Shown here piece by piece: positions 1,927 to 27,363 of a stretch of 34,011 nt of DNA. A model generated the notes under the pieces. It ran no database searches. It had not been told where the DNA came from and was given only the letters and a program-made list of their open reading frames with translations. The stretch is from an uncultured Verrucomicrobiota bacterium (GTDB lineage Bacteria > Verrucomicrobiota > Verrucomicrobiia > Opitutales > Opitutaceae): positions 1 to 34,011 of the forward strand of contig CAIVDS010000010.1 in the NCBI GenBank assembly GCA_903904685.1, read 5' to 3'. Each line of letters begins with the position of its first letter. Position 1 is the stretch's first letter. The position numbers were made by a program, and so were the translations under genes.

Positions 1927-4900
1927 ATGACCCTCCAGTCCCTCCACGACGCTCTCGCTTCCTATCGTCTCGAAACCGCCCGCCGTATCGGCCTCGCTCT
2001 GATCGCCGATCCAGCCTCCCGCACCGCCGGCGCCGTGTTCGGCCTGCATGACGCCCTCGTGGCGCTCAGCGATTTCCGGGCGGCTAGCGACCTGCTTGAC
2101 GCCCATGCCGGGTTGCTGAAAGATGAGCCCTTTGCCGTCATCCTGCGCCTGGCCGAGGACGCCCATATTCTCAGTGAAGAATCCCACTACCGTCTCTCCG
2201 AAGAAGGTCGGATGGGGCTGACCCTCGACGAGTATCTGACAAAATATCGGGCCTTCGCAGCCACTCGCTTCGCCGAAGCCATTCGTCAAGCCGACACGCC
2301 CGAGCGCATCGCCTCTCTTCGAGCCGCCGCCGCCCGCTGCCGCCGCACTCTCCCTCCCGAACTGGCCGCACCGGCCCCCGCAGCTCCGGCTCCGTCCACC
2401 GTATCCGTTCCCACGGGGAGTTTAAAGGGCCTCATCGTGCTCGAAGACGGCTCTCCCGCCGCCGGGGTCGGCGTCACCCTCGGCCTTGAGCCCCACGTCG
2501 TTCACGAAGATCCCCTCGCCCATACGTCCCACGATTCCCACTACCACCCGAAGATCGGCGAGCTTCGCATCCTCAAAACCAAGACCGATTCCACCGGGGC
2601 ATTCGCGTTTGCCGCCGTCCCCGTCGGCCGCCACGACTTCATCGCCGTCTCCCTCGACCCCGCGCACCACGCCGTCCCCACCCGCTTCATCGCGCGTAAT
2701 CTCGTTGTCTCCGCCGGCCGCACCACCGACACCGGTCGCCTTGCGGTCAAGGAATGGCGCAGCGCCCAGCCCGCTCCCTATGCGAGTCCCCACCCGGGAA
2801 ATCTCAAGGCCGAGGGTCACGCCTGGCGCAAGCTCGACGATGTGCGCCTGCACAATCCATTCTACTATTCCTTCCGCCGGCAGGCGCTGAAGCTCCCGAT
2901 TCCCGCCGACTTTAATCCCGCCGAGCACGCTCTCCGCATCGAGATCACGCCCGGCAAGGCCGAGCCGTTTCAGATCATCGATCGCGAGCTCCTCATTTTC
3001 ACGGATCTCCCCCACCGCTCCAACCGGAGCATCGCGCTCTACTCGGCCAAACTCCCTGCCTCCACGCCCGCCTTCTCCTCCAAGCTGAGCCTCGTCAAGG
3101 AATCCGCCGCCGTCTGGGTGCTCGACACCGGCCGGGCGCAGTTTCGCATCGCCGGCCCTGGTGCCGCGTTGGGCGACGCCCCCATTCTCGCCGTGCGCGG
3201 CGTCGATAAACGTTGGCGCGGTCGCGGACGTCTGGTCCTGCCCGCGGGAATCACCGTCTCCTCCCGCAGCACGACGCTCGTTCGCTCCGGCGCATTATTG
3301 ATCGAGCTCCGCAGCGAACTCCATCTGAGCAACGGAGCGACCTACGCCTTCGCCTTCACCGCCCATGAAGATGAACCGTTCCTCTCGGTGAAGGAAACTT
3401 CGCCCGATCTCGCGGGAGCGGCCTTTGAGTTCTCCCTTGCTGAATTTTCCGGCGGACGCGGCTTTCTCCACTGGGGGTCGGAACAACCCTTCGGCGCACG
3501 TCATTGGTGGACCCTCGAACGCAAGGAATCCCTTCTGGCCCGCCTGCCCGAGTCAATCCCGTGGTGGTGTCCGCCCCAGGGCTTCGGCTGCGCTTTCACG
3601 CCCGACAGCCTCGCCGAGCAGGATTATATCGGTGTCATCAGCCTGCGTCGCGGCGAATGGATCGACCGCGAGTTTGAGCGTATCGCGCAAGGCCCAATCG
3701 ATGTCGACGGCACCGAAAACCGCGAACTCGACTGGCCCTACCCCGAGATGGTCGGTTCTTCGATCTCGATGATCACCGGACACACCACGAATGACGGCGA
3801 CGCCTTCTTCCGCTTCGGTTGCTTTGACGGCGAACGCCAGTGGGGGCTCCTCGTCTCCTCTTTTCAGGCCAACGATGGTCTTTTAAAGGAAATCGCCGGC
3901 GTCCAGCACGCCTACTCCTCGCCCCGTCTCCAGGAATTCAAGGACTGGCACTTCGACGTGCCCGATGCCCATGCGCGCCCGCACGTCGTCGCGTCGCGGG
4001 ACAAGCTCGTCGAACTGCGCACCAAGACACGTTCACCCTTGTTCGGAAAAGTCTGGGAAAAAATCCGCGACGGCCGTATCCCCGGCCCCGCCCTCGGTCT
4101 CACCTTCGCGGTCGAATGCGATCCGGTCATCGCATGGCGCAAGCGCCTCGACCTCGTGCGCGTCGCCGAGATCCAGGCCCGCAAGGTTCTTTTCGGGCGC
4201 GACCGCGGCGACGCCTACTCGCCCGTCATGGGACGCCCCATCACCCCTTGGGCCGAAGAATACGACCTTATCGCCGCCAGCGGCGTGTTTGACGAGGAGG
4301 AGGAACGCACCATGCGCGCCTACTTTATCCTCATGGGCCACATGTTCATGGAACCCGACTTCATGAACTGGCAATTCAACGCGCGTAACGCCAACTTCGA
4401 GGCCGACCGCACCGACATCGTCGGAGCCGTGGGCCTGGTGTTCGACGGCCATCCCGATGCCGACAAGTTCCTCGACCACGTCATCGAGCTGACGAAAAAA
4501 TCGCTCCTCGTCTATTGCACGCCCGGCAGCGGAAAGTGGTATGAGAACCCCGCCTGCTACTACCTGCAGGCCTCCAAGTGCCGCATGAACCTGCTCTACC
4601 ACCTGGTGCGCCACGGTCGCATCAAGCTCGACGAGATTCCCCGCCTGAAGGACTTCCTCCGCTGGGGCATCATATTGCTTCAGCCGCCCAGCCCGGTATC
4701 CTATGCCGTCATGCGCGATGGAGGTGGTGCGGATGCCTACGCCCGCGCCGAAAAAATCAGAAAGATCCCGCCGATCGGCGACCATGCCTCCATCGGCCGC
4801 TGGCTGCCCGAGCACTACGCCACCATCGGCCAACTCTTCCGCGATCTCGACCCCGCGTTTTCCAAAGAGCTCACCGATGCGTATTTCTCCGGCAATGCCG

Positions 4901-6165
4901 ACGGCCTTCGCCTCGCCACCGGTTATACCCAGCCCATCACCCAAGTCGGCGAGCAGATCTTCCATGATGTCTGCAATGGTGCCGCCTCGGGCAACCTGCC
5001 GCTCTTCTTCGCCGTCTATGACGAAGCCGACATTCCTAAAAAAGTTCCCGCTCTTCCTCTCGTCAGCCGCCGGCTGGAAGGCTTTGGCGCTGTGTTTCGT
5101 CACGACGTCGGCTCGAAGCATGAAGGCTACGTGCTCTTGAAACAAGGGCCTGGCGGTTATCGTTATCAGCGCACGGAAGGCAGCATCATCTTCTTCGCCG
5201 ACGGACACCCGCTCGTTTACGACGGTGGCGAAGCGGGCGAAACCTGGCGCCACAGCACGCTCTCGTTCTACGACGTGCACATGCCCCTCAAAACCGGCCA
5301 TGTGGAGCGCATCTTCAACACCCCCGAGTTCCACTTCACCCAAGGCGTTCACCCCGGTGCCGTCGAACCCGGCAAGCCCGTCTTCCTCAACGACAGCTGC
5401 GAACACGAATTGGTTCAGGAGGCCTATCGCCGCTTCCGGCAGGAACCGCCCGGCATCGTCCGCTCGCTCGCCTGGATCGATGGCCGCACGCTTATCGTCC
5501 ATGACAGTATCGACCTCCCGCCGGAGATTCCCTCCCACTGGCATCTTCAGGTTGTCGGCTCAGCGCCCTCCGGCAACGCCGCCTTCGGTTATCGGTTCCC
5601 CGGACGCTTCGGCACCGATCTCCAAGTGCTTTTCCCCGGCCAGTCCTTCGTCAAGACCAGCGTCGAACACCTGCCCATCCTCGAATACACGAGCACGCCC
5701 GACAAGTGGTTCGGCCAGCAGCATCTCCAAGTCTCCACCCTCGGCGCGCGCAACTACCTCGCGGTGCTCCATCCCGTCGGCGAGTCCGGCACCGTCACCG
5801 CCGAGGCGCTGCATCACGCTGGCCGCATCGTCGGTGCCGTCGTGCATGATGCGAATCGCACGGACCGCGTCTGGTTCGGTCGCGGCAAGGTCTCGACCGG
5901 CGACGACGCCCACGCCTTTACCGGCACATCCGGGTCCCTCTTGCTGCGCAAAGATCACACGATCCTCGCGCTCATGGGTCCCGGCCTCCTTCGCCATGGC
6001 CAACTCGCCCTCGAAAGCGTAGGCCCTCAAGTGCTGCTCAAGGTCACCGGTCGCACCGCACGCCTCATCGCTCAAGGCAACGGTGAGGTGCGCGTAACCC
6101 TGCCAGGCAAGCCTTTGCAGACCGTCGCCGTCACCGGTTCCACTGAACTTACGTTCACCATCTGA
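1927..6165 (+). CDS. Large multidomain heparinase II/III-like polysaccharide lyase (putative)
   Basis: A 1412-residue protein. Residues 1-145 are helical and Ala-rich, followed by an Ala/Pro linker near 147-162. Residues 166-275 resemble a carboxypeptidase-regulatory or CnaB-type beta-sandwich (GLIVLEDGSPAAGVGVTL, later TDSTGAFAFAAVPVGRH). Residues 276-700 are beta-rich and unassigned. Residues 700-1010 are helical, with NWQF (814-817), NARNANF (818-824) and GKWYENPACYY (869-879), like the alpha/alpha-toroid of polysaccharide lyases. Residues 1040-1410 are beta-rich, with GYRYQRTEGS then FFADGHPLVYDGG near 1077-1102, as in the C-terminal sandwich of heparinase II/III-type lyases. No signal peptide is seen, so it may be cytoplasmic. 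Catalytic residues are not proven. Neighbouring esterase and fucosidase genes support a glycan role. Lyase activity is inference and a non-lyase hydrolase is possible. Confidence 0.6.
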   Translation: MTLQSLHDALASYRLETARRIGLALIADPASRTAGAVFGLHDALVALSDFRAASDLLDAHAGLLKDEPFAVILRLAEDAHILSEESHYRLSEEGRMGLTLDEYLTKYRAFAATRFAEAIRQADTPERIASLRAAAARCRRTLPPELAAPAPAAPAPSTVSVPTGSLKGLIVLEDGSPAAGVGVTLGLEPHVVHEDPLAHTSHDSHYHPKIGELRILKTKTDSTGAFAFAAVPVGRHDFIAVSLDPAHHAVPTRFIARNLVVSAGRTTDTGRLAVKEWRSAQPAPYASPHPGNLKAEGHAWRKLDDVRLHNPFYYSFRRQALKLPIPADFNPAEHALRIEITPGKAEPFQIIDRELLIFTDLPHRSNRSIALYSAKLPASTPAFSSKLSLVKESAAVWVLDTGRAQFRIAGPGAALGDAPILAVRGVDKRWRGRGRLVLPAGITVSSRSTTLVRSGALLIELRSELHLSNGATYAFAFTAHEDEPFLSVKETSPDLAGAAFEFSLAEFSGGRGFLHWGSEQPFGARHWWTLERKESLLARLPESIPWWCPPQGFGCAFTPDSLAEQDYIGVISLRRGEWIDREFERIAQGPIDVDGTENRELDWPYPEMVGSSISMITGHTTNDGDAFFRFGCFDGERQWGLLVSSFQANDGLLKEIAGVQHAYSSPRLQEFKDWHFDVPDAHARPHVVASRDKLVELRTKTRSPLFGKVWEKIRDGRIPGPALGLTFAVECDPVIAWRKRLDLVRVAEIQARKVLFGRDRGDAYSPVMGRPITPWAEEYDLIAASGVFDEEEERTMRAYFILMGHMFMEPDFMNWQFNARNANFEADRTDIVGAVGLVFDGHPDADKFLDHVIELTKKSLLVYCTPGSGKWYENPACYYLQASKCRMNLLYHLVRHGRIKLDEIPRLKDFLRWGIILLQPPSPVSYAVMRDGGGADAYARAEKIRKIPPIGDHASIGRWLPEHYATIGQLFRDLDPAFSKELTDAYFSGNADGLRLATGYTQPITQVGEQIFHDVCNGAASGNLPLFFAVYDEADIPKKVPALPLVSRRLEGFGAVFRHDVGSKHEGYVLLKQGPGGYRYQRTEGSIIFFADGHPLVYDGGEAGETWRHSTLSFYDVHMPLKTGHVERIFNTPEFHFTQGVHPGAVEPGKPVFLNDSCEHELVQEAYRRFRQEPPGIVRSLAWIDGRTLIVHDSIDLPPEIPSHWHLQVVGSAPSGNAAFGYRFPGRFGTDLQVLFPGQSFVKTSVEHLPILEYTSTPDKWFGQQHLQVSTLGARNYLAVLHPVGESGTVTAEALHHAGRIVGAVVHDANRTDRVWFGRGKVSTGDDAHAFTGTSGSLLLRKDHTILALMGPGLLRHGQLALESVGPQVLLKVTGRTARLIAQGNGEVRVTLPGKPLQTVAVTGSTELTFTI

Positions 6166-6247: not shown

Positions 6248-7450
6248 ATGAGCTGGTTCAACCAAGCCCGTTACGGCATGATCATACACTGGGGCCCCTA
6301 CTCCGTAGGCGGCCGCGGCGAATGGATCGCCAACCGCGAACTTTACTCCAAGAAGGACTACACCACGGAATTCGTGGAGAAGTTCACGGCGGAAAACTAT
6401 GATCCCCGCGCCTGGGTGAAACTGGCCAAGGAAGCCGGCATGGGTTATCTCGTCCTCACCACCCGCCATCACGACGGCTTCTGCCTGTGGGACACCGACA
6501 CCACCGATTTTAAGTCCACCAAAATCGGCGCGAAGCGCGACCTCGTGCGCGAGTTCGCCGATGCCGTCCGCGAAGGTGGCCTCAAGGTCGGGTTCTACTT
6601 CTCGATGGCCGACTGGTTTCATCCCGACTACCCCGGCGCCCACCGCCGCGACTGGCCCGACAGCTGGCCCGACGAGGCCGCCCGCCAGCGCTTCGTAAAA
6701 TTCTATTGCACCCAGATCGAGGAGCTCATGACCCGCTACGGCAAAGTAGACATCCTCTGGTATGACGGCTGCATCCCCTCGCCCACCGACGGCACAGCGA
6801 TCAACACCTGCATCAAGCAGCTCCAGCCCGGCATCCTCATCAACAACCGCAACGGCGCTCCGCACGATTTTCACAGCTGCGAGCAAGCCATCAAGCCCGC
6901 TCCCGCCGGCCACGACTGGGAAGCCTGCATGACGCTCAACGAAAACTGGGGCTTCCACGCCGGCGACCACCAGTGGAAAAATGCCCGCGCCGTCCTGCGC
7001 ATGCTGATCGAGACCGCCTGCAGCGCCGGCAACATCCTTCTCAACATCGGGCCGACCTCCGACGGCGTCATTCCTCAACCTTCGGTGGACATCCTCCGCG
7101 AAGTCGGCGACTGGCTGCGCCGCAACCCCGGCTGGCTGGCCGACTCCGACCGCTCGCCCTTCACCTGGAACAACTGGGGGCGTATCACCGTCAAGGGCAA
7201 TCGCATCTATCTGCACATCTTCAACGGCACCGGTCCTCGGTTGCGCGTGGCCGACATCGGCAACCGTGTGCTGCGCGCCTACCGCCTCGACGGAGGCGCT
7301 CCGGTGGCCTTCAGGCAGAGTAACGACCTTGTCATCCTCGACGGCCTGCCTTGGCCGCTCAAGGATCCCATCGCCACCACCATCGTCCTTGAAGTTGAGG
7401 GCACGCCTCAAACCACGCGCACCCAGACATCGTTCTGGATTCCCGAGTGA
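6248..7450 (+). CDS. GH29 alpha-L-fucosidase
   Basis: Hydrolyses terminal alpha-linked L-fucose from oligosaccharides by a retaining mechanism. The 400-residue protein begins directly in the barrel with IHWGPYSV (residues 13-20), followed by TTRHHDGFCLW (71-81), both GH29 hallmarks. The nucleophile is expected to be Asp173 in DILWYDG. NNRNG (199-203) and WEACMTLNENWGF (224-236) match the conserved second half of the barrel, and Glu212 or Glu225 could be the acid/base. Residues from about 310 to 400 form the usual C-terminal beta-sandwich. There is no signal peptide, unlike many GH29 enzymes, so it probably acts on imported oligosaccharides. Its stop codon overlaps the start of the next gene by 4 bases (GTGA), implying translational coupling. 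Confidence 0.93.
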   Translation: MSWFNQARYGMIIHWGPYSVGGRGEWIANRELYSKKDYTTEFVEKFTAENYDPRAWVKLAKEAGMGYLVLTTRHHDGFCLWDTDTTDFKSTKIGAKRDLVREFADAVREGGLKVGFYFSMADWFHPDYPGAHRRDWPDSWPDEAARQRFVKFYCTQIEELMTRYGKVDILWYDGCIPSPTDGTAINTCIKQLQPGILINNRNGAPHDFHSCEQAIKPAPAGHDWEACMTLNENWGFHAGDHQWKNARAVLRMLIETACSAGNILLNIGPTSDGVIPQPSVDILREVGDWLRRNPGWLADSDRSPFTWNNWGRITVKGNRIYLHIFNGTGPRLRVADIGNRVLRAYRLDGGAPVAFRQSNDLVILDGLPWPLKDPIATTIVLEVEGTPQTTRTQTSFWIPE

Positions 7451-9480
7451 GCGCATCCGCCGCGTTCCTGCCGCTGCATTATTGCCGGCCGGGCGCCCTT
7501 ACGCCGGGCACGGGGCGAACGATCCACGATCTCGCCCCGTTTCGACGCATGGCCGACATGGGTGTGACACTGTTCCAAGTCACCACCACGCCCACCGCCA
7601 ACATCTATAACACTGGCGAAGAAGTCTGGCTCGCGCCCGGCGTCTACGATTACACGCAACAAGAAGCCGGCTGGCGTCGCGTGCTGGAAGCGTGCCCCGA
7701 TGCCCGCTTGTGCCTGCGCCTCTTCATCGGTTCGCCCGAATGGTGGGACGCGGCTAATCCCGACGAACTCCAGCGCGGCGCCGATGGCTGTACGCACTTC
7801 ACGCTCACGCACACCTCGCGGCAAACCGTCCCGAGCGTCGCCTCCGAAAAATGGCGCGATGAGTCCGGCCACGCCCTGCGTCGGTTCCTCGATTGGCTGA
7901 AAACGTCCGGCTGGTCGGAGCGCATCTGGGGGTTTCTTGTCTGTGCAGGCATCACCTACGAATGGGGCCTGCTTGGCGGAGACACCATGCCCGATGTTTC
8001 CGCCCCGATGGTTCGACGCTTCCGCCGGTATTTGAAGGAATTTTACACCGACGAATGCTCTCTGCGCCTCGCGTGGAACGACAACACGGTGACCTTTGAA
8101 ACCGCCGTTGCGCCTTCGCGGGCCGCTCGCGAGGCGGGTGACGGCGACTGGCGTCAGTTTCCCCGGGATCAGGCGGCTTTCGACTTCCAGCGCTGCCTTT
8201 CGGTCGCGAACGCGGAGTACCTGATCGAGTCCGCCCAGCTCATCCGCATGCACGGCGCGCAGCACTATCGGATTGGCGCGTTCTATGGCTACACGCTCAC
8301 CGCGCGTGAAGGCTCCGGTTGGTCTGTCCTCGCCGGCGCAGGCGGTTTTGCCGGCGGCCATCACGCCCTCGGCCTTGTGCTGAAAGCGCGCGTGCTCGAC
8401 TACCTCGCCTCGCCTTACGCCTATGGCAACCGCGATCTCGGCAGCGGCACCCTCGTGCCGCATTTCCCCTGGGCCACAGTTCGCCACCATGGCGTTCAAC
8501 TGTATATGGAAAACGACTTGTGGACGTTCACCAACCCACGAGCCATAAAAAACAAGATGTCGGTTGGCGACACGTTCACGCCTGCAAGCTCGATTCTGCA
8601 CCAGCGACTGGCGTGGGGATCAGCGCTCTGTCGGGGGGAAAGCCTGTGGTGGTTTGATCTTACCCACTCTCGGATGCTTGGCCGGGAAGTGTCTAACTAT
8701 TCGGACCCGGCGATCCATGCCGAACTCGCCCGTCAATTTGCCCATTTTAAAGATTTGGAGGCATGTCGCGGCGGACCCGTCGCCCAGATTGCGCTCGTCA
8801 TCGACGAAGCCGGCAAGGACGCCATGAAGCTCGATTCAAAACTCTTCCTCGACGAGGTTTACAATGCGCTCGCCGCATGGGCCTGGTGCGGAGCCCCGTT
8901 TGACGTCTGGCTCGCGGAGGATGCGACACCCGAGACCATGCGTCCCTACCGGCTTGTTTACCTGTTCGCCCCGGCGACCACTCCTGCGCGACGAGCCGGG
9001 CTTTGCGCCGCCCTTGTCTCCCCTGATCGCACTCTCTGGCTCGCACCAGGCACCGAGTTGGCCGACGCTGAGACTTCCGACACCGCCATCCGGCAACCGT
9101 GCGCGGGAAAATCATCCGAGGAACTCGCCGTCGTCGCACGCTCCGCCGGAGTCCACCTCTACGCGGAGGCCCCCGTGCAGGTGTGGGCGTCGGAAAACCT
9201 CGTGCTGGTCCACACCCGTGAAGCCGGTGAACAGACGCTGAACTTCCCCGGCGGGGGCCGTTGGCGGGAGTTTTTCAGCAAGGTCGAAGTAACCGACTCG
9301 TTCGTTTTCCAAGCACACGATGTCCGCTTGTTCGTGCGCATGGACATTGGTGGAGCAGACCAGGATCAAACTGGCGACCTCGTCGTTGCGAACGACGCGC
9401 TCTATCAACTGAGCTACTGCCCCAAGAGAGAAACGAATGTATTTGGGGAATGCGCTCCTGCGAGTAAACATCTATTTTGA
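7447..9480 (+). CDS. GH42-like (clan GH-A) beta-galactosidase family protein; C-terminus runs through antisense of tRNA-Ala
   Basis: Probably a retaining beta-glycosidase, possibly beta-galactosidase. It starts at GTG 7447 inside the stop codon of the fucosidase gene. The N-terminal barrel shows RLFIGSPEWWDAANPDE (91-107), YEWG with candidate acid/base Glu172, and LYMENDLWTF with candidate nucleophile Glu355. This pair and order resemble GH42. A Rossmann-like trimerisation-type domain follows from about 445 to 560, then a small beta domain ending near HDVRLFV. There is no signal peptide. The last 40 or so residues are read from the complement of a complete tRNA-Ala gene (9348-9423) and include DQDQTGDL and ALYQLSYCP, classic residues of a translated antisense tRNA. 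The ancestral stop was probably lost and that tail is unlikely to belong to the fold. Confidence 0.75.
   Translation: MSASAAFLPLHYCRPGALTPGTGRTIHDLAPFRRMADMGVTLFQVTTTPTANIYNTGEEVWLAPGVYDYTQQEAGWRRVLEACPDARLCLRLFIGSPEWWDAANPDELQRGADGCTHFTLTHTSRQTVPSVASEKWRDESGHALRRFLDWLKTSGWSERIWGFLVCAGITYEWGLLGGDTMPDVSAPMVRRFRRYLKEFYTDECSLRLAWNDNTVTFETAVAPSRAAREAGDGDWRQFPRDQAAFDFQRCLSVANAEYLIESAQLIRMHGAQHYRIGAFYGYTLTAREGSGWSVLAGAGGFAGGHHALGLVLKARVLDYLASPYAYGNRDLGSGTLVPHFPWATVRHHGVQLYMENDLWTFTNPRAIKNKMSVGDTFTPASSILHQRLAWGSALCRGESLWWFDLTHSRMLGREVSNYSDPAIHAELARQFAHFKDLEACRGGPVAQIALVIDEAGKDAMKLDSKLFLDEVYNALAAWAWCGAPFDVWLAEDATPETMRPYRLVYLFAPATTPARRAGLCAALVSPDRTLWLAPGTELADAETSDTAIRQPCAGKSSEELAVVARSAGVHLYAEAPVQVWASENLVLVHTREAGEQTLNFPGGGRWREFFSKVEVTDSFVFQAHDVRLFVRMDIGGADQDQTGDLVVANDALYQLSYCPKRETNVFGECAPASKHLF
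9348..9423 (-). tRNA. tRNA-Ala (anticodon CGC)
   Basis: Read on the minus strand, the acceptor GGGGCAG pairs with CTGCTCC, including the G3:U70 wobble that specifies alanine. The D stem is GCTC/GAGC. The anticodon stem CGTCG/CGACG holds loop TTCGCAA with anticodon CGC. The T stem is GCCAG/CTGGT with loop TTTGATC. The discriminator is A and CCA is encoded. The tRNA lies entirely inside, and antisense to, the 3' end of the GH42-like reading frame. Confidence 0.97.
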
Positions 9481-10912: not shown

Positions 10913-12862
10913 ATGTCTTCCTCAAAATCGCTCTTTCGTTTCGCTCCGATTTTTCAAGATCACGCCGTTCTTCAGCGCGAACAGACCATCCCCGTATGGG
11001 GACATGGTCCCGCGGGTGATACCGTCATGGTCACTCTGGCCGGCCACAAGGCGGAGACCATCTGCGGCGATGCCGGCACGTGGCATCTCCACCTGCCGCC
11101 CCTGCCCGCCGGCGGGCCGCATGAACTGATCGCGGAATCGGGCTCGGGTCGCGCCGTGGTGCGCGATATTTTGATCGGCGAAGTCTGGCTGTGCTCCGGC
11201 CAGTCCAACATGGACATGACGCTGGCCAACTCCGATCAGGACGGTTCCTCGCCCACCGAGACCAACCTGCCGCAGGTGCGCGTGCTCAGCGTGACCAACC
11301 CCGCGACGCTCGCCACGACACTCGGCGTGGGCGGTATTTGGAAACCGGCGACACACGCCACGCTCTCGGCCTTTTCGGCGGTAGGCGGCTGGTTTGGCCG
11401 GACACTGCACCGCGAACTCGGCGTGCCCGTCGGCCTGATCTGCAACGCCTGGGGCGGCACCCGCATCCAAGCCTGGACCAGTCGCTCCGCGCTGATGACC
11501 GACCCGCAGGGCACGGAGGAGATTCGCACATTCGAGTCCACCGTCTGGAAACACCAGCCGGGCAAGCGCAGGGGGATACCGCCTTTTGAGCAATGGGAGC
11601 GTACCGAAGCTCCGCAGGACCCGGGCAACGCGGGCTTTGACCGCGGCTGGGCTGCCGCGACCTTCGACGACGCAGCGTGGCCGGTCTCAACCCTGCCCGC
11701 CCGATGGAATGGCGTGGAACAGCCGTATAACGGCATCGTGTGGTTTCGCCGCAGCGTGGAAATCCCCTCAGCGTGGGCCGGCCATGAACTGGAATTGAAA
11801 CTGGGCGCGATCGACAAGCACGACGACACCTACGTCAACGGCGTGCGCGTAGGCGGCTTGTCGTGGGAAACCCCTAACGCCTGGTGCACCCCCCGCGTGT
11901 ATCGGGTGCCGGGGGCGTTGGTAAAGGCCGGCAGGCTGGTCGTGGCGGTGCGCGCACGGTCCCATGTGTTCGATGCCGGGTTCAACGGCCCGGCGGCGCA
12001 CATGCTCCTCGAGCTCCCCGGCAAACCCGAAACCGCCCTGCCGCTCGCGGGCGCATGGGGGTTTTGCGTCGAACAAGATTGGGGCCGAGTCGTGCCGCCC
12101 GCCATCGCGTGGGGACCGGACGCACCGAACTCGCCCGCCATCCTGTTCAACAGCCGCGTCGCTCCGCTTGTGCCTTACGGCTTGCGCGGTGTCATCTGGT
12201 ATCAAGGCGAATCCAACGCCCATGAACCCGCCGCCTATCGTCGGCTGCTCCCCTTGATGATCCGCGACTGGCGCCGTGCGTGGGGCCAGGGCGACTTTGC
12301 CTTCGGACAGGTGCAGTTGGCAAACCACCATCCCGCGCTCGATATTCCCTGCGAAAGCCCATGGGCCGAGTTGCGCGAAGCCCAGTTGGCCGGGCTGGCC
12401 GAACCCGCCACCGGTCTCGCGGTCGCGGTCGACATCGGCGAGGCCGCAGACATCCATCCGCGCAACAAGCGCGATGTCGGACTGCGTCTCGCCCGCTGGG
12501 CGCTCGCCGATATTTACAGCCGTGGCGGTGTCGCCTCCGGGCCTGTTTTTACGCGCATGGACAACGAGGCCGGCGGGCGCGTGCGCTGCCACTTCCGCAA
12601 CACCGGCGGAGGCCTCGTGGCTCGCGGCGGAGCCCTGCGACGCTTCGAGCTCGCCGGTCCCGACCATACGTTTGTCTGGGCTGAGGCGGAGATCCAAGGC
12701 CACAGCGTCGTCGTCTGGAATGCCTCCGTGCCCAATCCGGTCGCCGTCCGCTACGCATGGGCCGACAATCCCGACGGGTGCAATTTGTATAACAACGAAG
12801 GTCTCCCCGCCTCGCCTTTCCGCAGTGATGCTTTTGTGGGTAAACCCGCCAAGGTCGACTGA
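10913..12862 (+). CDS. Sialate O-acetylesterase-type carbohydrate esterase
   Basis: SASA-type esterase of 649 residues, expected to remove O-acetyl groups from a glycan; the exact sugar is unknown and the sialate name is by family. LCSGQSNMDM (94-102) carries nucleophile Ser98. NAWGGTRIQAW forms the oxyanion block. VIWYQGESN (427-435) is the conserved central motif. ADIHP with Asp513 and His515 completes the triad. A jelly-roll insertion between about 230 and 370 (WFRRSVEIP, YVNG) resembles the galactose-binding fold found inside these enzymes. The N-terminus starts MSSSKSLFRFAPIFQDHAVLQ and has no signal peptide, so it is probably cytoplasmic. It opens the second plus-strand carbohydrate block. 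Confidence 0.9.
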   Translation: MSSSKSLFRFAPIFQDHAVLQREQTIPVWGHGPAGDTVMVTLAGHKAETICGDAGTWHLHLPPLPAGGPHELIAESGSGRAVVRDILIGEVWLCSGQSNMDMTLANSDQDGSSPTETNLPQVRVLSVTNPATLATTLGVGGIWKPATHATLSAFSAVGGWFGRTLHRELGVPVGLICNAWGGTRIQAWTSRSALMTDPQGTEEIRTFESTVWKHQPGKRRGIPPFEQWERTEAPQDPGNAGFDRGWAAATFDDAAWPVSTLPARWNGVEQPYNGIVWFRRSVEIPSAWAGHELELKLGAIDKHDDTYVNGVRVGGLSWETPNAWCTPRVYRVPGALVKAGRLVVAVRARSHVFDAGFNGPAAHMLLELPGKPETALPLAGAWGFCVEQDWGRVVPPAIAWGPDAPNSPAILFNSRVAPLVPYGLRGVIWYQGESNAHEPAAYRRLLPLMIRDWRRAWGQGDFAFGQVQLANHHPALDIPCESPWAELREAQLAGLAEPATGLAVAVDIGEAADIHPRNKRDVGLRLARWALADIYSRGGVASGPVFTRMDNEAGGRVRCHFRNTGGGLVARGGALRRFELAGPDHTFVWAEAEIQGHSVVVWNASVPNPVAVRYAWADNPDGCNLYNNEGLPASPFRSDAFVGKPAKVD

Positions 12863-13034
12863 CAGCATCAAGAGCCGACACCCTCTATTGAGAAAAGCCT
12901 CAGTTGCACGAGCGGGTGAAGTATGGCTGACCATTGAAAGGGAAAATCGAAGCCTAGGCACAGAATAAATACAGTGATCATTTCATTGCATCGTGCTTTT
13001 CAAAAGCCGGACGCAGTCGTTCACTGATCCCTTC

Positions 13035-14057
13035 ATGCAATCCACGTCCCCTCTGCCCATTGCCATCGTCGGCCTGAATTTCGGCCGCCACATCATCGAT
13101 CAGATCGTCTCGGGTAAAGACGCCGCCCATGTGCGCCTCGTAGCCGTTTGCGACATGGACAAGGCCAAGGCCGATGCCATGGCCGCCAAACAAGGCGTAA
13201 AAGCCTATTACGACATCGACGCCCTCCTCGCCGATCCATCCATCCCTACCATCGGTCTCTTCACCGGTCCCGTGGGACGCGCCGCCCTTCTCGGTCGCAT
13301 CCTTCGCGCCGGCAAGGATGTGATCACCACCAAGCCTTTCGAGACCGACCCCGACGCCGCCCTCGCCGTCCTCAGGGAGGCCAAAACCCTCGGCCGTGTC
13401 CTTCACCTCAACTCTCCCGCACCGACCCCGCCCGAGGATCTGGCCCAAATTCTTTCATGGGTAAACGGCTACAAACTCGGCGCCCCCGTCGGCGTCCGCG
13501 CCGACGTCTGGGCCAACTACCGCGAGGCCGCCGACGGCACCTGGTATGACGATCCCGCCAAATGTCCCGTCGCTCCCGTTTTTCGCCTCGGAATCTACCT
13601 GATCAACGATCTCATCCAGCTCTTCGGCCCCGTCGCCGATGTCAGCGTATTCCAATCGCGACTCTTCACCGGTCGGCCCACCGCCGACAACGGCCAGCTC
13701 AGCCTGCGTTTTGAAAACGGCGCTCTTGGCAACATCTTCGCCTCCTTCTGCATCAACGACGGCGACCACTACCGCAACACCCTCGTTCTGAACTACGAAA
13801 ACGGCACCATCTACCGCAACGCCGGCCCCGACCGCGGCGGCTCGCTCAGCGAACTCTCGCTCGTGATGAACCGCGACGGCCGCCGCCAGGTCGTCGCCCG
13901 CACCATCGCCGGTGAAAGCAGCGGCGGCTACCAGTGGGGTGTTTTCGCCCGCGCCGTCCGCGGTGAAAAACTCGCCCATGAAACCACTCCCGAGCAGATC
14001 GTCGCCGGCCTGCGCGTCGTCAACGCCATGACCAAGGTCGCCACGACCCTCGGCTGA
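13035..14057 (+). CDS. Gfo/Idh/MocA-family NAD(P)-dependent sugar oxidoreductase
   Basis: Oxidises or reduces a sugar, inositol or sugar derivative with NAD(P). From the ATG at 13035 the protein is 340 residues. A Rossmann fold begins at IAIVGLNFG (a GxNxG variant of the usual GxGxxG loop), with VCDMD at the end of strand two. ITTKPFE near 98-104 is the catalytic EKP-type motif with Lys100 and Pro101. The C-terminal half is the alpha/beta substrate domain, with GIYLINDLIQLFG in the position of the conserved GxxxxD helix. A GTG at 12993 would add 14 residues that do not resemble the family start. In this context it probably processes a monosaccharide released by the neighbouring hydrolases. 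Confidence 0.9.
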   Translation: MQSTSPLPIAIVGLNFGRHIIDQIVSGKDAAHVRLVAVCDMDKAKADAMAAKQGVKAYYDIDALLADPSIPTIGLFTGPVGRAALLGRILRAGKDVITTKPFETDPDAALAVLREAKTLGRVLHLNSPAPTPPEDLAQILSWVNGYKLGAPVGVRADVWANYREAADGTWYDDPAKCPVAPVFRLGIYLINDLIQLFGPVADVSVFQSRLFTGRPTADNGQLSLRFENGALGNIFASFCINDGDHYRNTLVLNYENGTIYRNAGPDRGGSLSELSLVMNRDGRRQVVARTIAGESSGGYQWGVFARAVRGEKLAHETTPEQIVAGLRVVNAMTKVATTLG

Positions 14058-14185
14058 TTCACGACTGGCCGTCTAACACACAGCCAGCGGAACGCCTCCC
14101 GCTGCTATCACGTGTTGTCCGACAACGCCGGGTCCCCTTCCCTTTTCCGTCAGCGTTCATTGGCCGCACCCCAACCAGGCTCTCC

Positions 14186-16285
14186 ATGCATTACCACACG
14201 CAACACTCTCCTTTCGGCGCCTTCGCCAGCTTCACGATCGGACTCCCCGGCCAACGCGGCGGCTTCGGCCAGTCGCTCTCCGGCCCCGCCGGCCAGAACG
14301 TCTATGCCGGCTTCCGCGCCGTCGCCGCCGGCGGCGCGCCCGCGCCCTGGAAACTTCTCCCCTTCTTCGAGCGTCCGCAAACCGCCGCCGTCGCCGCCTT
14401 CACCGGGGAAAACACCGCCGCATCTTCCCACGAGCCCCAAGCCATTGATCTCGCCACCGTCACCCGGCACCTCGGCTGGGCCACCGACACATGGACGCAC
14501 GGTCCCTTTTCACTGCGCATCCTGAGCCCGTTCGATCACATCGCCCATCCCGACACGATGGATCGCGATACGGCCCGCCTGACCCTTGCCCCGGTCGTCC
14601 ATGCCGAACTCGCCTACGACAACACCCAAGGCTCCGCCGCCATCGAACTTCTCTTCGGCATCGGCCGCACCGAGCATCCGCTGCGTCCGCTCGAGGATGT
14701 ATCCTCCGACCTGAGCGGCTTCGCGCTCGGCCAGAGCTACGGCTTCGCCGCCCGCCCGGCCGATATCGCCGGCCGGATACAGGGGCTTGATCTTTTCAAC
14801 CCGCCCGCCCGCGATCATCGAGGGCTCCACCTCCTCTCTCACGAAGCCGGGGTGGTTTTCCTTGTGCCCGCCGGCACGCGCAGGAGCTTCCCTGTCGCCC
14901 TCGGTTTCTACCAGTCCGGCATCGTCACCACCGGCCTGCCCACCTGCTATTATTACACCAAGTTCTTCGCCGACCTTGAGGACGTGCTCCTCCACGGCCT
15001 CGCGCGGCATTCCCATTACGCCGCCCTGGCCGAGAAGCGCGACGCCGAGCTTGCCGCCTCGCCGCTTGACGAGCACCAGCGCTGGTTGATCGCCCAGGCC
15101 ACCCACAGCTACCTCGGCAGCTCGCAGCTCATGCAGCACAAGCGCCGGGCGCTCTGGATCGTCAACGAGGGCGAATACCGGATGATCAACACCTTCGACC
15201 TCACCGTCGACCACCTCTTCTTCGAACTTGCCTGGTGGCCCTGGGCGGTGGGCAACACCCTCGATCTCTTCGTCCGCCGCTACCGCTACACCGACAAAAT
15301 CCAGCGCCCCGGCGGCACGCCGGTGGTTCGCGGCGGCGTGTCGTTCACCCACGACATGGGCGTGATGAACCAGTTCACGCCTCCCGGCCGCTCCAGCTAC
15401 GAATGCGACCACCTTCATGGCTGCTTCTCGCACATGACCATGGAGCAGCTCATCAACTGGATCTGCTGCGCCACCACCTACGTCGAGAAAACCGGCGACG
15501 CCGCCTGGCTCCAAGCCCGGCAAAAACTTCTCCTTGCCTGCGCCGACAGTCTCCGCCGTCGTGACGATCCGCGCGAAACGAAACGCACCGGCCTCCTCAA
15601 ATGGGACAGCCACCGCTGCGGCGCCGACGGCGGCGAGATCACCACCTACGATTCGCTCGACATTTCGCTCGGCCAGGCCCGCAACAACCTCTATATCGCG
15701 GTCAAGGCCTTCGCCGCCTGGACGCTCCTCGAACGCGCCTTCGCCGGCCTCGGCCTTGCCGGAGCCGCCGACGCCGCGCGCGCCTCCGCCGATCTCGCCG
15801 CGTCCGCCGTCGCCGCGCAGTTCGACGCCGACACCGGCCTGTTCCCCGCCGTGTTCGAGGCTGGCAACCGCTCTCGCATCCTGCCCGCGGTCGAAGGCCT
15901 CGTTTTCCCGCTGTTCCTCGGCTACGCCGGCGAGCTGCGGTCGCGCTATCCCGAGCTCTTCTCCAAACTCTCCCGGCACATGGCCAACGCCCTCCAGCCC
16001 GGCGTGTGTCTCGACGCCGAAAGCGGCGCATGGAAAATCTCCAGCACCAGCTCCAACACCTGGTTCAGCAAGATCGCCCTCGCCCAGCACGTCGTGCGAC
16101 GCCTCTTCCCCGAGACGCTCAACGATGCCGCACGCGCCGCAGATGCCGTCCACGCCAAGATGCAGCAAAGCGAACCCCTTGGCCGCTACGCCATGGTTGA
16201 CCAGGTCCACAGCGCCACCGGTGTCTCCATCGGCAGCCGCTATTATCCGCGCATCGTCACCGCCTGCCTCTGGCTCGAGCCTTGA
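14186..16285 (+). CDS. GH52 beta-xylosidase-type glycoside hydrolase
   Basis: Length (699 residues) and motifs match GH52, a retaining family with beta-xylosidase activity. The opening HSPFGAFASFTIGLPGQRGG matches the family start. IVNEGEYRMINTFDLTVD places the nucleophile at Glu328 or Glu330, and ITTYDSLDISLGQARNN places the acid/base at Asp489 or Asp492, in agreement with the Glu335/Asp495 pair known from the Geobacillus enzyme. An N-terminal beta-sandwich (1-275) precedes the alpha/alpha-toroid (300-699). There is no signal peptide, as in characterised GH52 enzymes, so it would act on imported xylo-oligosaccharides or related xylosides. It sits 38 bases upstream of the GH-D gene on the same strand. 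Assignment is by memory of motifs only. Confidence 0.85.
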   Translation: MHYHTQHSPFGAFASFTIGLPGQRGGFGQSLSGPAGQNVYAGFRAVAAGGAPAPWKLLPFFERPQTAAVAAFTGENTAASSHEPQAIDLATVTRHLGWATDTWTHGPFSLRILSPFDHIAHPDTMDRDTARLTLAPVVHAELAYDNTQGSAAIELLFGIGRTEHPLRPLEDVSSDLSGFALGQSYGFAARPADIAGRIQGLDLFNPPARDHRGLHLLSHEAGVVFLVPAGTRRSFPVALGFYQSGIVTTGLPTCYYYTKFFADLEDVLLHGLARHSHYAALAEKRDAELAASPLDEHQRWLIAQATHSYLGSSQLMQHKRRALWIVNEGEYRMINTFDLTVDHLFFELAWWPWAVGNTLDLFVRRYRYTDKIQRPGGTPVVRGGVSFTHDMGVMNQFTPPGRSSYECDHLHGCFSHMTMEQLINWICCATTYVEKTGDAAWLQARQKLLLACADSLRRRDDPRETKRTGLLKWDSHRCGADGGEITTYDSLDISLGQARNNLYIAVKAFAAWTLLERAFAGLGLAGAADAARASADLAASAVAAQFDADTGLFPAVFEAGNRSRILPAVEGLVFPLFLGYAGELRSRYPELFSKLSRHMANALQPGVCLDAESGAWKISSTSSNTWFSKIALAQHVVRRLFPETLNDAARAADAVHAKMQQSEPLGRYAMVDQVHSATGVSIGSRYYPRIVTACLWLEP

Positions 16286-16323: not shown

Positions 16324-18018
16324 ATGATCTCAAGCCCCCTGTCCATCTACATCAATTGGGCCTCCTACGACGAGCTCTCCGACAACGTCGAACTCACCGA
16401 GGAACTCGCCCTTCGCCAGCTCGACGCCCTTCTTTGGCTGCGCATGCAGGGCGTTCGCTTCGATTATTACCTGATGGACGCCTTCTGGTATGACCGCGAC
16501 GGCGGCTACCGCACCTGGCGCAAACCGCACTGGCCCGACGGCCCCGATCGCTGGCTGCGCAAGTGCATCGAGAACGACGTGAAGCCCGGCCTCTGGGTCA
16601 CCGTGAACACCCTCTGCCAGATGAACTCCATCCCCGAGTGGGCGGACTCGCTGGACGAGAACCCCGTCCCCGCCGGCCACACCTGGGCGAAAAAGTTCTG
16701 CTGCTTCCACGGCGGCTTCCTCGCCCACTTCATGGCGACGCTCGACCATTGGCATGGGCGCGGTTTCCGTCTTTTCAAATTCGACTTCGCCGACTTCAAC
16801 GCCGCGCCGCCCCACCTCCAGCAAACCCTCCTGCCTTCCGAGATCCGCGCCGCCAACATCACCGCGTTCCAAGGCGCCCTGAAAGCCTTCCGCAAGCGCC
16901 ATCCCGACGTCGTGCTTATCGGCTACAACGGCTTTGAGGAATACCCCGCGCAGCTCGGCACCGCCTTCCCCCTGTGCAAGATCGTCGATCACCGCTGGCT
17001 TGAGGTCTTCGACTCGCTCTACTGCGGCGACCCGCGCCCCGCCGACGTGCCCGCCATGAATTTCTGGCGCTCCAAGGACATCTACTCCGACCACCTCGTG
17101 CGCTACTACGAGTTCAACGGTTTTCCGCTAAGCCGCATCGACAACAGCGGCTTCATGATCGGCACGACCGGCACCTGCTACCACCGCGGCACCGCCGCCT
17201 GGCAGGGCATGCTGCTGCTCTCCCTCGCCCGCGGCGGGTGGGCCAACACCTACTACGGCAACCTCGATCTTCTCGACGAAGAGAAAGCCCGGTGGTTCGC
17301 CCGCGTCCAGCGGCTCTTCCTTCCGCTGCAGGCGACCGCCCATGTTGAAACCTTCGGCGGCATGCCCGGCGAAGCCCAACCCTACGGCTACTCCGCCCGA
17401 CAGTCCGGAGGCGGGCTTTTCACGGTGGTCAACCCCTCTCAATCCGTCGCCGAGATCGGCCTGCCCCCGCTCGACGGCGCCGCGGCCCGGGTGCTTTTCG
17501 CCGACGCCGGTTTCAATCCCGCCTTGCGCAATGGCCGCCTCTCCCTCGGTCCCGAACAACTCGCCGTCGTCGGTTTCGGTTCCTATGCCGATGCCCGCCA
17601 CGATCTCGGCCGCCAGCATGACGTTGTCATTCCGACCGCGATCCGGCCTCTCGCGTCCGATGTCGTCGCCGGAGAAAAACGCCTCGACATCACTCTCGCC
17701 CGCCCGCCGTCCGCAGGCAAAGTCCGCATCGTCCTCCGCCAGACAACCTCCGCGGGCTATCCCAAGCGCAGCACCGGCGGTTCGCCACCCAAGGGGATTT
17801 CCCTCGGCAAGATCCTTCGTCTTTCCGCCTTTCAGGCCGGCCGCGAAATCCCCGTGGCCATCCACTACGACAAGGCCATTTGGAGCGGCCTCTCGTGGGC
17901 CGTCGGCGAAGTCGACGCCACCGCCTTGAACCCGGCCCTGCCGCTCATGATCGAATGCTCAACGACCGAGGCGGAAACCGTCATGCTCGCCGCCGAGCTT
18001 TTCCACGTCTTCAACTGA
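16324..18018 (+). CDS. Clan GH-D glycoside hydrolase (alpha-galactosidase-like)
   Basis: A 564-residue (beta/alpha)8 barrel protein likely to cleave an alpha-galactoside or similar alpha-glycoside. YYLMDAFWYDRDGGY matches the barrel entrance strands of GH27/GH36. GLWVTVNT precedes the catalytic strand RLFKFDFADFN, where Asp154 occupies the nucleophile place of the KxD motif. A second acid may lie in the segment around GDPRPADVP or FWRSKD, but I cannot decide which. Residues from about 360 onward are beta-rich (GLFTVVNPS, then two further strands) and probably form the C-terminal sandwich. There is no signal peptide. It starts 38 bases after the GH52 stop, so the two are probably co-transcribed. 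It could instead belong to a less studied GH36-like subfamily. Confidence 0.78.
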   Translation: MISSPLSIYINWASYDELSDNVELTEELALRQLDALLWLRMQGVRFDYYLMDAFWYDRDGGYRTWRKPHWPDGPDRWLRKCIENDVKPGLWVTVNTLCQMNSIPEWADSLDENPVPAGHTWAKKFCCFHGGFLAHFMATLDHWHGRGFRLFKFDFADFNAAPPHLQQTLLPSEIRAANITAFQGALKAFRKRHPDVVLIGYNGFEEYPAQLGTAFPLCKIVDHRWLEVFDSLYCGDPRPADVPAMNFWRSKDIYSDHLVRYYEFNGFPLSRIDNSGFMIGTTGTCYHRGTAAWQGMLLLSLARGGWANTYYGNLDLLDEEKARWFARVQRLFLPLQATAHVETFGGMPGEAQPYGYSARQSGGGLFTVVNPSQSVAEIGLPPLDGAAARVLFADAGFNPALRNGRLSLGPEQLAVVGFGSYADARHDLGRQHDVVIPTAIRPLASDVVAGEKRLDITLARPPSAGKVRIVLRQTTSAGYPKRSTGGSPPKGISLGKILRLSAFQAGREIPVAIHYDKAIWSGLSWAVGEVDATALNPALPLMIECSTTEAETVMLAAELFHVFN

Positions 18019-25275: not shown

Positions 25276-27363
25276 ATGAAACCCGGCATCCCATCCGACT
25301 ACGAAGCCCGCGTGTATGCCGGCGTGTTGGGGAAACTCATCGGCGTGTATCTTGGCCGTCCCTTTGAAGGATGGTCTTACGAGAGACTCTCCAACCGCTG
25401 GGGCGAAATCCGCCGCTATGTGCATGCGGACCAAAACATGCCGTTGATCGTCACCGACGACGACATCACCGGGACGTTCACCTTTGTGCGAGCGCTCCTC
25501 GACCACGGAATAAAGCCCGACTTGAGCTCACGGGAAATCGGTCAGAGCTGGCTGAACTACATTGCCGAGGGCCGGCACATCCTTTGGTGGGGAGGGATGG
25601 GGATGTCTGCCGAACACACCGCCTATTTGCGGCTGGAGGCCGGAATCGAGGCCCCCAAGAGCGGCTCCATCGGGCTGAATGGCACCGGCGTGGCCGAGGA
25701 AATCGGCGCCCAGATTTTCATCGACGGCTGGGCGATGGTGGCCCCGGGCAATCCCGACCTCGCGGTGCGTCTGGCGCGCGAAGCCGCGCGCGTCAGCCAC
25801 GATGGCGAGGCCGTGCATGGCGCGGTCGTCATCGCGGCAATGGAATCGATGGCTTTTCTGGAGCAGGATATCGACAAGCTCCTCGACAAGGCCCTCGCCT
25901 ACATCCCCGCCGATTGTCGCATCGCGCAATTGATCGCCGACCTCAGGCGCTGGCACGGAGAACACGCCGATTGGCGCAAGGCCCGTGAACTGCTGGTCGA
26001 GCACCACGGCTACCAAAAATTCGGGACCAACTGTCCGATGGTTTCCAACCACGGCGTCATCATCCTCGCCTTGCTCTACGGCGGTGGCGATTTCGATCGC
26101 TCCATGATGATCGTCAACACTTGCGGCTACGACACCGACTGCAACTCCGGGAACCTGGGATGCCTGCTCGGCATCCGCAGCGGCCTGGCCGCGCTGCGCT
26201 CCGGCTACGATTGGCGCACGCCGGTCAACGATCGCATGTATCTGCCGGCGGCCGACGGGCACTGGGGCATGCGCGACGCCGCGACGATGGCTCTGGAAAT
26301 CGCCAACATCGGACGGGTGCTCGCGGCCGGTCGGCCGAGCCTGCCCAAGAATGGCGCCAGATTCCACTTCGACCTGCCCGGGTCCACCCACGGCTTTGCG
26401 CCTTCGAGCCTTTGCCCGAAGGAAATGCGGGCCACGCCCGTGGACAAGGCGTTGCGCCTGCAGATCGCATTCCCGGGAATGCGCTGCGATGCCGAGGTGG
26501 CAACTTTTCTGACACCGGAATCGTTGAAGCTGGCCATTTACGGAGCCAGCGCGACTCCTGCTCTCTATGAAGGCGATCTGATCCAGGCCCGGGTGCTGGC
26601 CGGCTCCGTCAACCATCAGGCGGTGAGCGCGCGTTTGTTTGTTCGTGCGTATGCCGACGGTGAAGCCATCGTGCTCAAGGAGGGACCGTTGGTTGAGGTG
26701 CAGCCCGGCCACGCCGCGATACTTCAATGGAAGGCGCCGGAGACCGGAAACTGGCCGATTTTTGCCGTAGGAGTTCAGTTGATCGGACCGCGGGGCAGCC
26801 AACTGGATCTCGACTGGCTGACATGGAGAGGCACTCCCACGCTCACGTTTTCGACTCCGGAGAACTGTAAGGATATCGGTCTCTGGAGCCGTATTTTCAT
26901 CCACAACTTGGAACAGCCGGGCTGGAGCGGGCTGGCACCGTGGAACGAAAGCGTCTCCCTGATCAAAAACCGTGGCCGCGGCCTCCTGCACACGGGCACT
27001 CGCGAATGGAAAGACTATCGCGTCTCCTCCTGCATCAAACCGTGGGTTGGCAGCGAATGCGGCATCGCCGCGCGCGTCCAAGGGCTCACCCGCCAATATG
27101 CGCTGCTTCTGCGACCGGGAAACAAGCTGGTTCTGGTTCGGATGGCGCACCACGAGACCGTGCTGGCCGAGACGGAATTCACGTGGGAGTTGTGCAACAC
27201 CTACGAACTCGCGCTGGAGGTGCGCGAGGATTCCCTCGTGGGATTTGTCAACGGGACGCGGCTGCTGGCAGCACGGGATTCCATGCTTGGTGAAGGTGGT
27301 ATTGGCCTCGTTGTCAGCAACGGGCGCATCAACGCCACTCCCCTGCGAATCGAGGCGCTCTGA
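25276..27363 (+). CDS. ADP-ribosylglycohydrolase-family protein with extra C-terminal domains
   Basis: Residues 1-345 are an ADP-ribosylglycohydrolase (DraG/ARH) domain. VTDDDITGT (59-67) and GYDTDCNSGNLG (284-295) supply the aspartates that bind the two metal ions, and YAGVLGKLIGVYLGRPFEG is the usual opening. Residues 346-540 are beta-rich and unassigned. Residues from about 550 to 695 resemble a concanavalin/laminin G-like or DUF1080-type sandwich (DYRVSSCIKPWVGSECGIAARVQG would be its first strands), ending in LRIEAL. No signal peptide is present. Family members remove ADP-ribose from proteins, but many environmental members lie among sugar-catabolism genes and may act on glycosides. Substrate here is unknown. 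Confidence 0.82.
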   Translation: MKPGIPSDYEARVYAGVLGKLIGVYLGRPFEGWSYERLSNRWGEIRRYVHADQNMPLIVTDDDITGTFTFVRALLDHGIKPDLSSREIGQSWLNYIAEGRHILWWGGMGMSAEHTAYLRLEAGIEAPKSGSIGLNGTGVAEEIGAQIFIDGWAMVAPGNPDLAVRLAREAARVSHDGEAVHGAVVIAAMESMAFLEQDIDKLLDKALAYIPADCRIAQLIADLRRWHGEHADWRKARELLVEHHGYQKFGTNCPMVSNHGVIILALLYGGGDFDRSMMIVNTCGYDTDCNSGNLGCLLGIRSGLAALRSGYDWRTPVNDRMYLPAADGHWGMRDAATMALEIANIGRVLAAGRPSLPKNGARFHFDLPGSTHGFAPSSLCPKEMRATPVDKALRLQIAFPGMRCDAEVATFLTPESLKLAIYGASATPALYEGDLIQARVLAGSVNHQAVSARLFVRAYADGEAIVLKEGPLVEVQPGHAAILQWKAPETGNWPIFAVGVQLIGPRGSQLDLDWLTWRGTPTLTFSTPENCKDIGLWSRIFIHNLEQPGWSGLAPWNESVSLIKNRGRGLLHTGTREWKDYRVSSCIKPWVGSECGIAARVQGLTRQYALLLRPGNKLVLVRMAHHETVLAETEFTWELCNTYELALEVREDSLVGFVNGTRLLAARDSMLGEGGIGLVVSNGRINATPLRIEAL

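Follow-up and report, generated by a model that had tools for sequence, protein, structure and literature searches.

The question raised by the window analysed here, a stretch of 34,011 nucleotides from an uncultured Verrucomicrobiota bacterium of the Opitutaceae (contig CAIVDS010000010.1 of assembly GCA_903904685.1), is what function should be assigned to the large open reading frame (ORF) at 1927-6165 on the forward strand, to which all domains and residues and the two directly flanking genes described below also belong. The ORF starts with ATG and encodes a heparinase-fold, lyase-like protein of 1412 AA residues. We judge it slightly more probable than its negation that this protein is a cytoplasmic polysaccharide or oligosaccharide lyase belonging to an uncharacterised subfamily within the heparinase II/III superfamily, whose fold joins an alpha/alpha toroid to an antiparallel beta-sheet; it would add a new branch to an enzyme type already known and not be a new kind of system. 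The gene is real and conserved. The 32 in-frame codons between the start and the preceding stop contain no ATG, GTG or TTG, the mirrored frame on the opposite strand of 1927-6165 carries six stops, and long antisense ORFs overlap the gene in other frames, of which the longest occupies 4033-5544. Alignment of 12 close-family sequences contains 246 invariant columns, and this conservation marks the forward-strand gene as more than a chance frame. The query departs from the alignment at just three sites that are otherwise invariant, one of them being Gln1081, and on this ground decay of the gene was dismissed.

The assignment is carried by a profile comparison with heparinase II/III proteins. Alignment of 12 close homologues with 19 PF07940 proteins in hhalign gave a probability of 96.6, an E-value of 6.7e-10 (hhalign E-values here refer to a single pairwise comparison) and a score of 93.9 across residues 774-1286, compared with scores of 13.5-22.8 in one reversed and ten column-shuffled controls. 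At the level of profiles this establishes homology between heparinase II/III proteins and the region spanning the toroid end and the C-terminal sandwich, which in the conserved core is preceded by a beta-rich region, and it bears out the lyase-like toroid and C-terminal sandwich proposed in an initial annotation of this DNA. The comparison set comprised 19 of 25 fetched PF07940 proteins, all over the cut-off and from genomes related to that of the window; L096, L103, L105, L106, L110 and L114 were left out on account of unclear, cut or unusually long frames, and some of the 19 may themselves be cut by stretch ends. Pfam searches with 15 of 24 distant relatives (described below) returned nine matches to Hepar_II_III_C and one to Hepar_II_III_N, all below the gathering score, the best reaching 23.4 where 24 is needed and some of the nine being near-copies of one another. 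In the query no match to PF07940 or PF16889 was detected at E-values up to 1, nothing in Pfam or NCBIfam came close to a cut-off, and no protein in its own genome matched PF07940 at E ≤0.001. The initial annotation had not recognised the domain order from a named lyase family, and Pfam, NCBIfam and PDB, which include no CAZy models, gave no match of the query to a named family over its full length.

By sequence, the nearest PDB chains to the query were the alginate lyase entries 6jpn, 6jp4 and 6jph, with non-significant E-values of 0.33-0.42 and an alignment over the segment GKWYENPACYY. Profile searches of PDB with the A2, A4 and A8 profiles gave chance-level matches or none, and PL39 was not recovered by the family profiles. 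The A5 group of distant relatives, taken alone, showed no match to the heparinase II/III set (probability 3.1) and aligned with the A4-like proteins at a probability of 99.7; its profile found fibronectin-type matches in PDB at its C-terminus. PDB searches with two single relatives yielded nothing relevant for L029 and nothing significant for L084, for which an unrelated chain (E 0.067) was followed by 8r73 (Heparinase II/III-like), 6jpn, 6jp4 and 6jph at E 0.18-0.29. NCBIfam searches with six relatives gave a single match, far below threshold, of L084 to heparin-sulfate lyase.

The predicted active site was then compared among 14 close-family sequences, the query included, to which all counts out of 14 refer. 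N823 (4393-4395, within RNANFEAD) is the predicted carboxylate-neutralising Asn, being present in 14/14 and profile-aligned to the Asn of heparinase II/III proteins, and Y878 (4558-4560), likewise found in all 14, aligns with the heparinase II/III Tyr and is the predicted catalytic acid/base. Y878 is contained in GKWYENPACYY, also the Tyr segment matched in the alginate lyase chains above, so that this motif, which the initial annotation suggested superposing on catalytic sites, does hold the likely catalytic Tyr. NWQF, named there alongside it, probably does not contain the catalytic Asn: profile alignments place N823, nine residues downstream, at that position, N814 of NWQF was rejected for the role, and in the alignment with A4-like relatives gaps surround NWQF. 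N823 and Y878 are separated by 55 residues and invariant in 14/14; the numbering in the table of PMC12088678 gives Asn-Tyr spacings of 53-57 for PL12, PL17, PL35 and PL39. D952 of a GDH motif (4780-4782; 14/14, GDH/GDS aligned) is the predicted counterpart of the tetrad Asp, which corresponds to Asp288 in PL39 Dp0100 and Asp358 in PL40 Uly1040 according to PMC12915356. At the C-terminal end, R1079 (5161-5163; Arg in 14/14) stands at the position of the C-terminal catalytic His, followed by Q1081 (5167-5169), which is Gln in the query alone and His in the other 13/14, D1099 (5221-5223; 14/14) and H1109 (5251-5253; 14/14). Position 1081, D1099 and H1109 are predicted metal ligands, in line with the ligand roles in heparinase II. 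A ligand role is described in PMC12915356 for His487 and His407 at the second-His position. It is possible that Gln1081 stems from an assembly error.

The most intriguing point, as judged from alignments, is the apparent change from His to Arg, which the initial annotation does not mention. The close family reads R-Y-H-R-T at the C-terminal His site and most relatives read H-x-H; two ungapped profile alignments place R1079 on the first His and residue 1081 on the second, and in the direct hhalign alignment with the PF07940 set the first His faces a gap of one residue instead. Toroid lyases are described as having Asn, Tyr and His in common (PMC12088678; PMC11848413), with the His located in the C-terminal sheet in PL12, PL15, PL17, PL21, PL35 and PL39, by the numbering in Table 4 of PMC12088678, and preceding the Tyr in PL8 and PL23. 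Among the distant relatives, 23 of 24 could be aligned at this site, giving six Arg (the A5 group), 15 clear His and two ambiguous residues (L081 and L086), and for L024, the remaining one, the motif indicates His; L028 and L031 have Gln at the second position (His-x-Gln). In a tree of 36 proteins, a branch with a support of 82, below the mark of 95, separates the Arg-bearing proteins from the others, which is compatible with a single origin of Arg at the His position. This tree was built by a quick method with a midpoint root and six long-branch rows, and all 18 other relatives were entered as His, among them the His-x-Gln proteins L031 and L028 and the ambiguous L086 and L081. The Arg-bearing sister group (L051, L052, L027, L050, L053 and L054) carries fibronectin-type C-terminal parts, and signal-like N-termini were seen in 5/6 of these L051-type relatives as well as in several other distant relatives.

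The conserved core consists of one or more beta-rich domains at residues about 286-690 (2782-3996; matches in relatives, hhalign), a predicted alpha/alpha toroid at residues about 691-1030 (3997-5016; boundaries approximate, helices in a low-confidence model and a profile match from residue 774) and one or more C-terminal beta domains at residues about 1040-1412 (5044-6162), which are heparinase II/III-like by profile to about residue 1286 and show model strands at 1302-1411. The 400 residues in the middle had been regarded as a potential new binding or catalytic module. Searches with the query and the family model yielded 24 wider relatives of 809-1541 AA residues, some of them truncated where a contig ends. 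The middle region (model positions 287-690) was matched at an independent E-value below 0.01 in 17/24 of these proteins, in 13/24 together with a toroid or C-terminal match, although both rates are biased, given that the relatives were gathered because something matched. Profile-profile comparisons gave probabilities of 99.7 for A2 with A4 (E 3e-26; columns 381-1229, from residue 307), 99.4 for A2 with A5 (E 5.7e-22) and 100 for A8 with seven A4-like proteins (E 1.3e-43). The middle region is thus homologous to the N-terminal part of the wider relatives, where it recurs with the toroid, and has long belonged to this group of proteins; the idea of a new module was abandoned. Invariant positions among the 12 sequences amount to 8% in residues 286-500, 24% in 501-700 and 29% in the toroid, so that the second half of the middle region is conserved almost like the toroid, and conservation is at its maximum across residues 501-1260.

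Residues 1-280 were modelled as part of residues 1-714 in AF2. The model has a mean predicted local distance difference test (pLDDT) score of 51 and is confident solely at its start, so fold searches with it inform only on residues 1-147 and about 155-280; it shows helix at 3-137, strands from 163 to 273 and then a beta-rich part of low confidence beyond 273. Residues 1-141 (1927-2349) form a TPR-like helical array, with pLDDT block means of 75-92 over residues 1-140, which are helical throughout, and VIA-align matches to BamD, SycD and TPR proteins at Z 10.8-12.8 among the matches listed. Helical repeats may reach Z about 13 merely through a common arrangement, so 'TPR-like' is a description of the fold only, and no TPR sequence motif over the Pfam cut-off was found in the N-terminus. 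Residues 162-280 (2410-2766) were assigned to a CnaB/transthyretin-type sandwich based on VIA-align matches over about the same residues to teneurin 2 (Z 11.8, root-mean-square deviation 1.7 over 81 residues), a TIE protein (Z 11.4) and the BcpA pilin (Z 10.9). The pLDDT block means over residues 161-280 range from 27 to 80, with strands of moderate confidence between loops and values below 50 at 187-214 and 241-255; CarboxypepD_reg (PF13620) remained below cut-off (E 0.08; 13.7 bits, 32.3 needed). In Foldseek, the three matches at E ≤0.001 were a lipoxygenase, the BcpA pilin and a pyrogallol-phloroglucinol transhydroxylase; a CnaB2 domain followed at 0.0011. In the 24 distant relatives, matches to the family model begin no earlier than position 287 and leave out its TPR-like/CnaB part in every case; this N-terminus therefore seems particular to the close family. 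The domain order put forward in the initial annotation was retained as to the helical N-terminus and the CnaB-type sandwich (by model and VIA-align) and the toroid and C-terminal sandwich (by profile), and given up as to a separate module in the middle.

No signal sequence was seen by eye in Kyte-Doolittle scans of 13/13 close-family N-termini, namely those of 12 complete close sequences, the query included, and the N-terminal piece of the paralogue in the query's own genome, in agreement with the earlier claim that a signal peptide is missing. L022 was read from a conserved Met, 67 residues after the beginning of its listed ORF, and the hydrophobic peaks of about 2.4 at residue 36 in L021 and L022 lie within the predicted helical array. 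The protein is probably cytoplasmic. Cytoplasmic oligo-alginate and oligogalacturonate lyases are known, and such a location, formerly described as unusual, is not extraordinary as such.

Compared with the heparinase II/III superfamily (PF07940/PF16889), the query shares profile homology over the toroid end and C-terminal sandwich, the aligned Asn and Tyr and the Asp and His positions of the predicted metal site, but it has no Pfam match, carries Arg for the C-terminal catalytic His and places about 690 residues before the toroid, reaching 1412 AA residues versus 579-804 in the fetched stretches of the 19 proteins. The best solved-chain match, non-significant and over the Tyr segment, is the PL39 alginate lyase Dp0100, the name given to 6JPN in PMC12915356, which has comparable Asn, Tyr and Asp positions (PMC12915356, PMC12088678). 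By alignment, however, the tetrad members His405, Asp288 and His407 face Arg1079, Asp952 and His1081 in the close family, and Gln1081 in the query, and the Dp0100 toroid starts at residue 1 (PMC12088678). The PL15 exo-heparinase BIexoHep resembles the predicted layout of the query in having a beta-sheet domain before the toroid and a beta-sandwich after it, and truncation of its residues 1-150 abolishes activity (PMC7904915); this domain, however, spans residues 24-150 as opposed to about 400 residues in the query, which has neither a DUF4962 match nor a His counterpart of the C-terminal His555 (PMC12088678). The PL40 ulvan lyase Uly1040 and PL33 resemble the query in the aligned Asn and Tyr and in the toroid/sheet cleft predicted for it (PMC12915356, PMC11848413), and in PL33 the Tyr serves as acid/base with D-glucuronate (PMC11848413), but according to these sources they are two-domain enzymes with the toroid first and the His kept (His485 and His444). 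In the 24 wider relatives, such as L026, L029, L051 and L082, the middle beta region, toroid and C-terminal sandwich are homologous by profile, whereas the TPR-like/CnaB part is missing and the N-termini are mixed. Our search of the open-licence literature, by titles and opening lines of abstracts, found no paper on this architecture.

The gene is flanked by putative sugar-processing genes. Directly upstream, at 596-1780, lies a gene for an SGNH/GDSL esterase (PF13472, E 4e-16), a homologue of which occurs at 6/9 other loci examined (L005, L021, L022, L056, L057 and L059), with only 274 bases upstream at L006; signal-like N-termini were seen in 4/6 esterases scanned. The esterase ORF of the window has a TTG start and no signal peptide, and a hydrophobic stretch precedes it in frame without a standard start codon. 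Directly downstream, at 6248-7450, a GH29 alpha-L-fucosidase-like protein is encoded (PF01120, E 1.3e-83; 6gn6, E 5e-92), with homologues at 3/9 other loci (L005, L006 and L059, the last partial at a contig end). GH130 follows the lyase gene in L021 and L022, GH94 precedes it in L056, and none of the GH29, GH130 and GH94 proteins scanned, that of the window included, has a signal stretch. MFS genes are found at L056, L057 and L059, and that of the window lies at a distance of 17 kb. Other neighbours include a GFO/IDH/MocA oxidoreductase at L023, a sulfatase and an FAD oxidoreductase at L021 and, at L057, one protein with an NHL repeat match only.

It is proposed that the SGNH esterase would act first, trimming an acetylated, fucose-bearing uronic-acid oligosaccharide before it enters the cytoplasm; the oligosaccharide would then be imported, given the MFS genes near three homologues, and cleaved in the cytoplasm by beta-elimination. 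In this reaction, neutralisation of the +1 uronate carboxylate would fall to Asn823, possibly aided by Arg1079. Tyr878 would be base as well as acid, in the way suggested for PL12, PL21 and PL33 with D-glucuronate at +1 (PMC11848413); if Tyr plays both parts, no His base would be needed. A second Tyr is said to be the base in PL17 (PMC11848413). The resulting pieces may be processed by GH29, GH130 or GH94 enzymes, and the TPR-like N-terminus may mediate oligomerisation or partner binding.

Several observations weigh against such a lyase. By alignment the C-terminal catalytic His is replaced by Arg1079 in 14/14, and the query alone has also lost the second His (Gln1081) and may be weak or inactive. 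The core of the query has no significant match in Pfam, NCBIfam or PDB sequences, and in the PDB search unrelated chains came next after the alginate lyase, at E 0.53 and 0.67. A core model of residues 285-1412 from three sequences had a mean pLDDT of 34 and was unusable for fold search, so the beta-rich region, toroid and C-terminal sandwich rest on sequence profiles. Four of ten further neighbours scanned had no Pfam family, neighbours vary between loci, and the substrate, its acetylation, its import and its uronic acid have been inferred from the neighbouring genes only. The loss of His, together with the TPR-like N-terminus, would suit a non-catalytic or nearly inactive relative, whose fold binds oligosaccharides as a sensor or scaffold and whose TPR-like part recruits partners. 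We consider this unlikely, since N823, Y878, D952, D1099 and H1109 are invariant and conservation peaks in 501-1260, as fits an enzyme, the gene order with glycoside hydrolases and an esterase fits catabolism, and the query shows no general decay.

If the protein is active, the base could also be Arg1079 or a shifted H1081, acting as an Arg/Tyr or His/Tyr pair instead of Tyr878 alone. Other lyase folds include some with Arg as the base, the one-residue gap in the PF07940 alignment allows the shift, and His1081 is present in 13/14, but the two other profile alignments contain no gap and match 1081 to the second His, and the query itself carries Gln1081; this reading seems quite unlikely to us. 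Even less can be said for a uronate-acting enzyme that leaves the chain intact, such as a C5 epimerase acting through Tyr878. DS-epi1 has the same fold and Tyr (PMC11848413), and loss of the lyase His might accompany another outcome at C5, but the catabolic neighbours (GH29, GH130, GH94, MFS and esterase) and the likely cytoplasmic location would fit degradation better, making an epimerase very improbable. A tentative extension of the lyase assignment, possible without being the expected outcome, is that the group, together with one or more sister clades, constitutes a new PL family. In it, the C-terminal His that toroid lyases otherwise conserve would have been replaced once by Arg, Tyr alone would perform beta-elimination on imported oligosaccharides in the cytoplasm with Arg neutralising the carboxylate, and the TPR-like/CnaB N-terminus would stand in place of an export signal, the query having lost its second His and being possibly metal-free. 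Should the cytoplasmic lyase prove active, the toroid-lyase scaffold could function without the usual C-terminal catalytic His, an uncharacterised group of large Verrucomicrobiota proteins (about 1000-1600 AA residues where complete) would be opened to assay, and an intracellular uronic-acid oligosaccharide route would link a lyase, phosphorylase-family enzymes (GH130 and GH94) and a fucosidase. An inactive protein would represent a conserved pseudo-lyase, useful for genome annotation.

Close homologues, about 40-73% identical, are scattered across Verrucomicrobiota genomes. Counting the query's own genome each time, they occur in 2/13 genomes of the genus, 6/200 of the family (three others with partial matches only), 4/384 of the class (nine others with weak partial matches only) and 5/387 of the phylum (some of them fragmented or lying at the end of a contig; a further 14 with partial matches only). 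A homologue is also present in two metagenome-assembled genome records, one of Opitutaceae and one of Verrucomicrobiota, counted once with G445:C495 and G489:C191, and no relatives were found in plasmids or in viral contigs. The query's own genome (3.2 Mb, 114 contigs) holds a second, diverged copy on contig C64 (L020:6313-10567) in two overlapping frames, split near residue 965 by a true frameshift or an assembly error. Genome G136 has two equal-scoring copies of a 1597-AA homologue on two contigs (L023 and L033), representing a duplication or an assembly artefact.

Elsewhere in the window, an ORF encoding 677 AA residues at 7447-9480 is GH42-like (E 0.21), and its listed C-terminus is doubtful because a tRNA-Ala gene of the opposite strand (9348-9423) overlaps it at the 3' end. 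An SASA acetylesterase with a GH2-like part, a GFO/IDH/MocA oxidoreductase and a GH52 protein are encoded in a row at 10913-16285 as a second sugar cluster, followed at 16324-18018 by a protein of 564 AA residues with no Pfam match that resembles, by eye, a GH27/GH36-type barrel. A BspA-type leucine-rich repeat protein is encoded at 19071-21725, and an ADP-ribosylglycohydrolase-family protein at 25276-27363.

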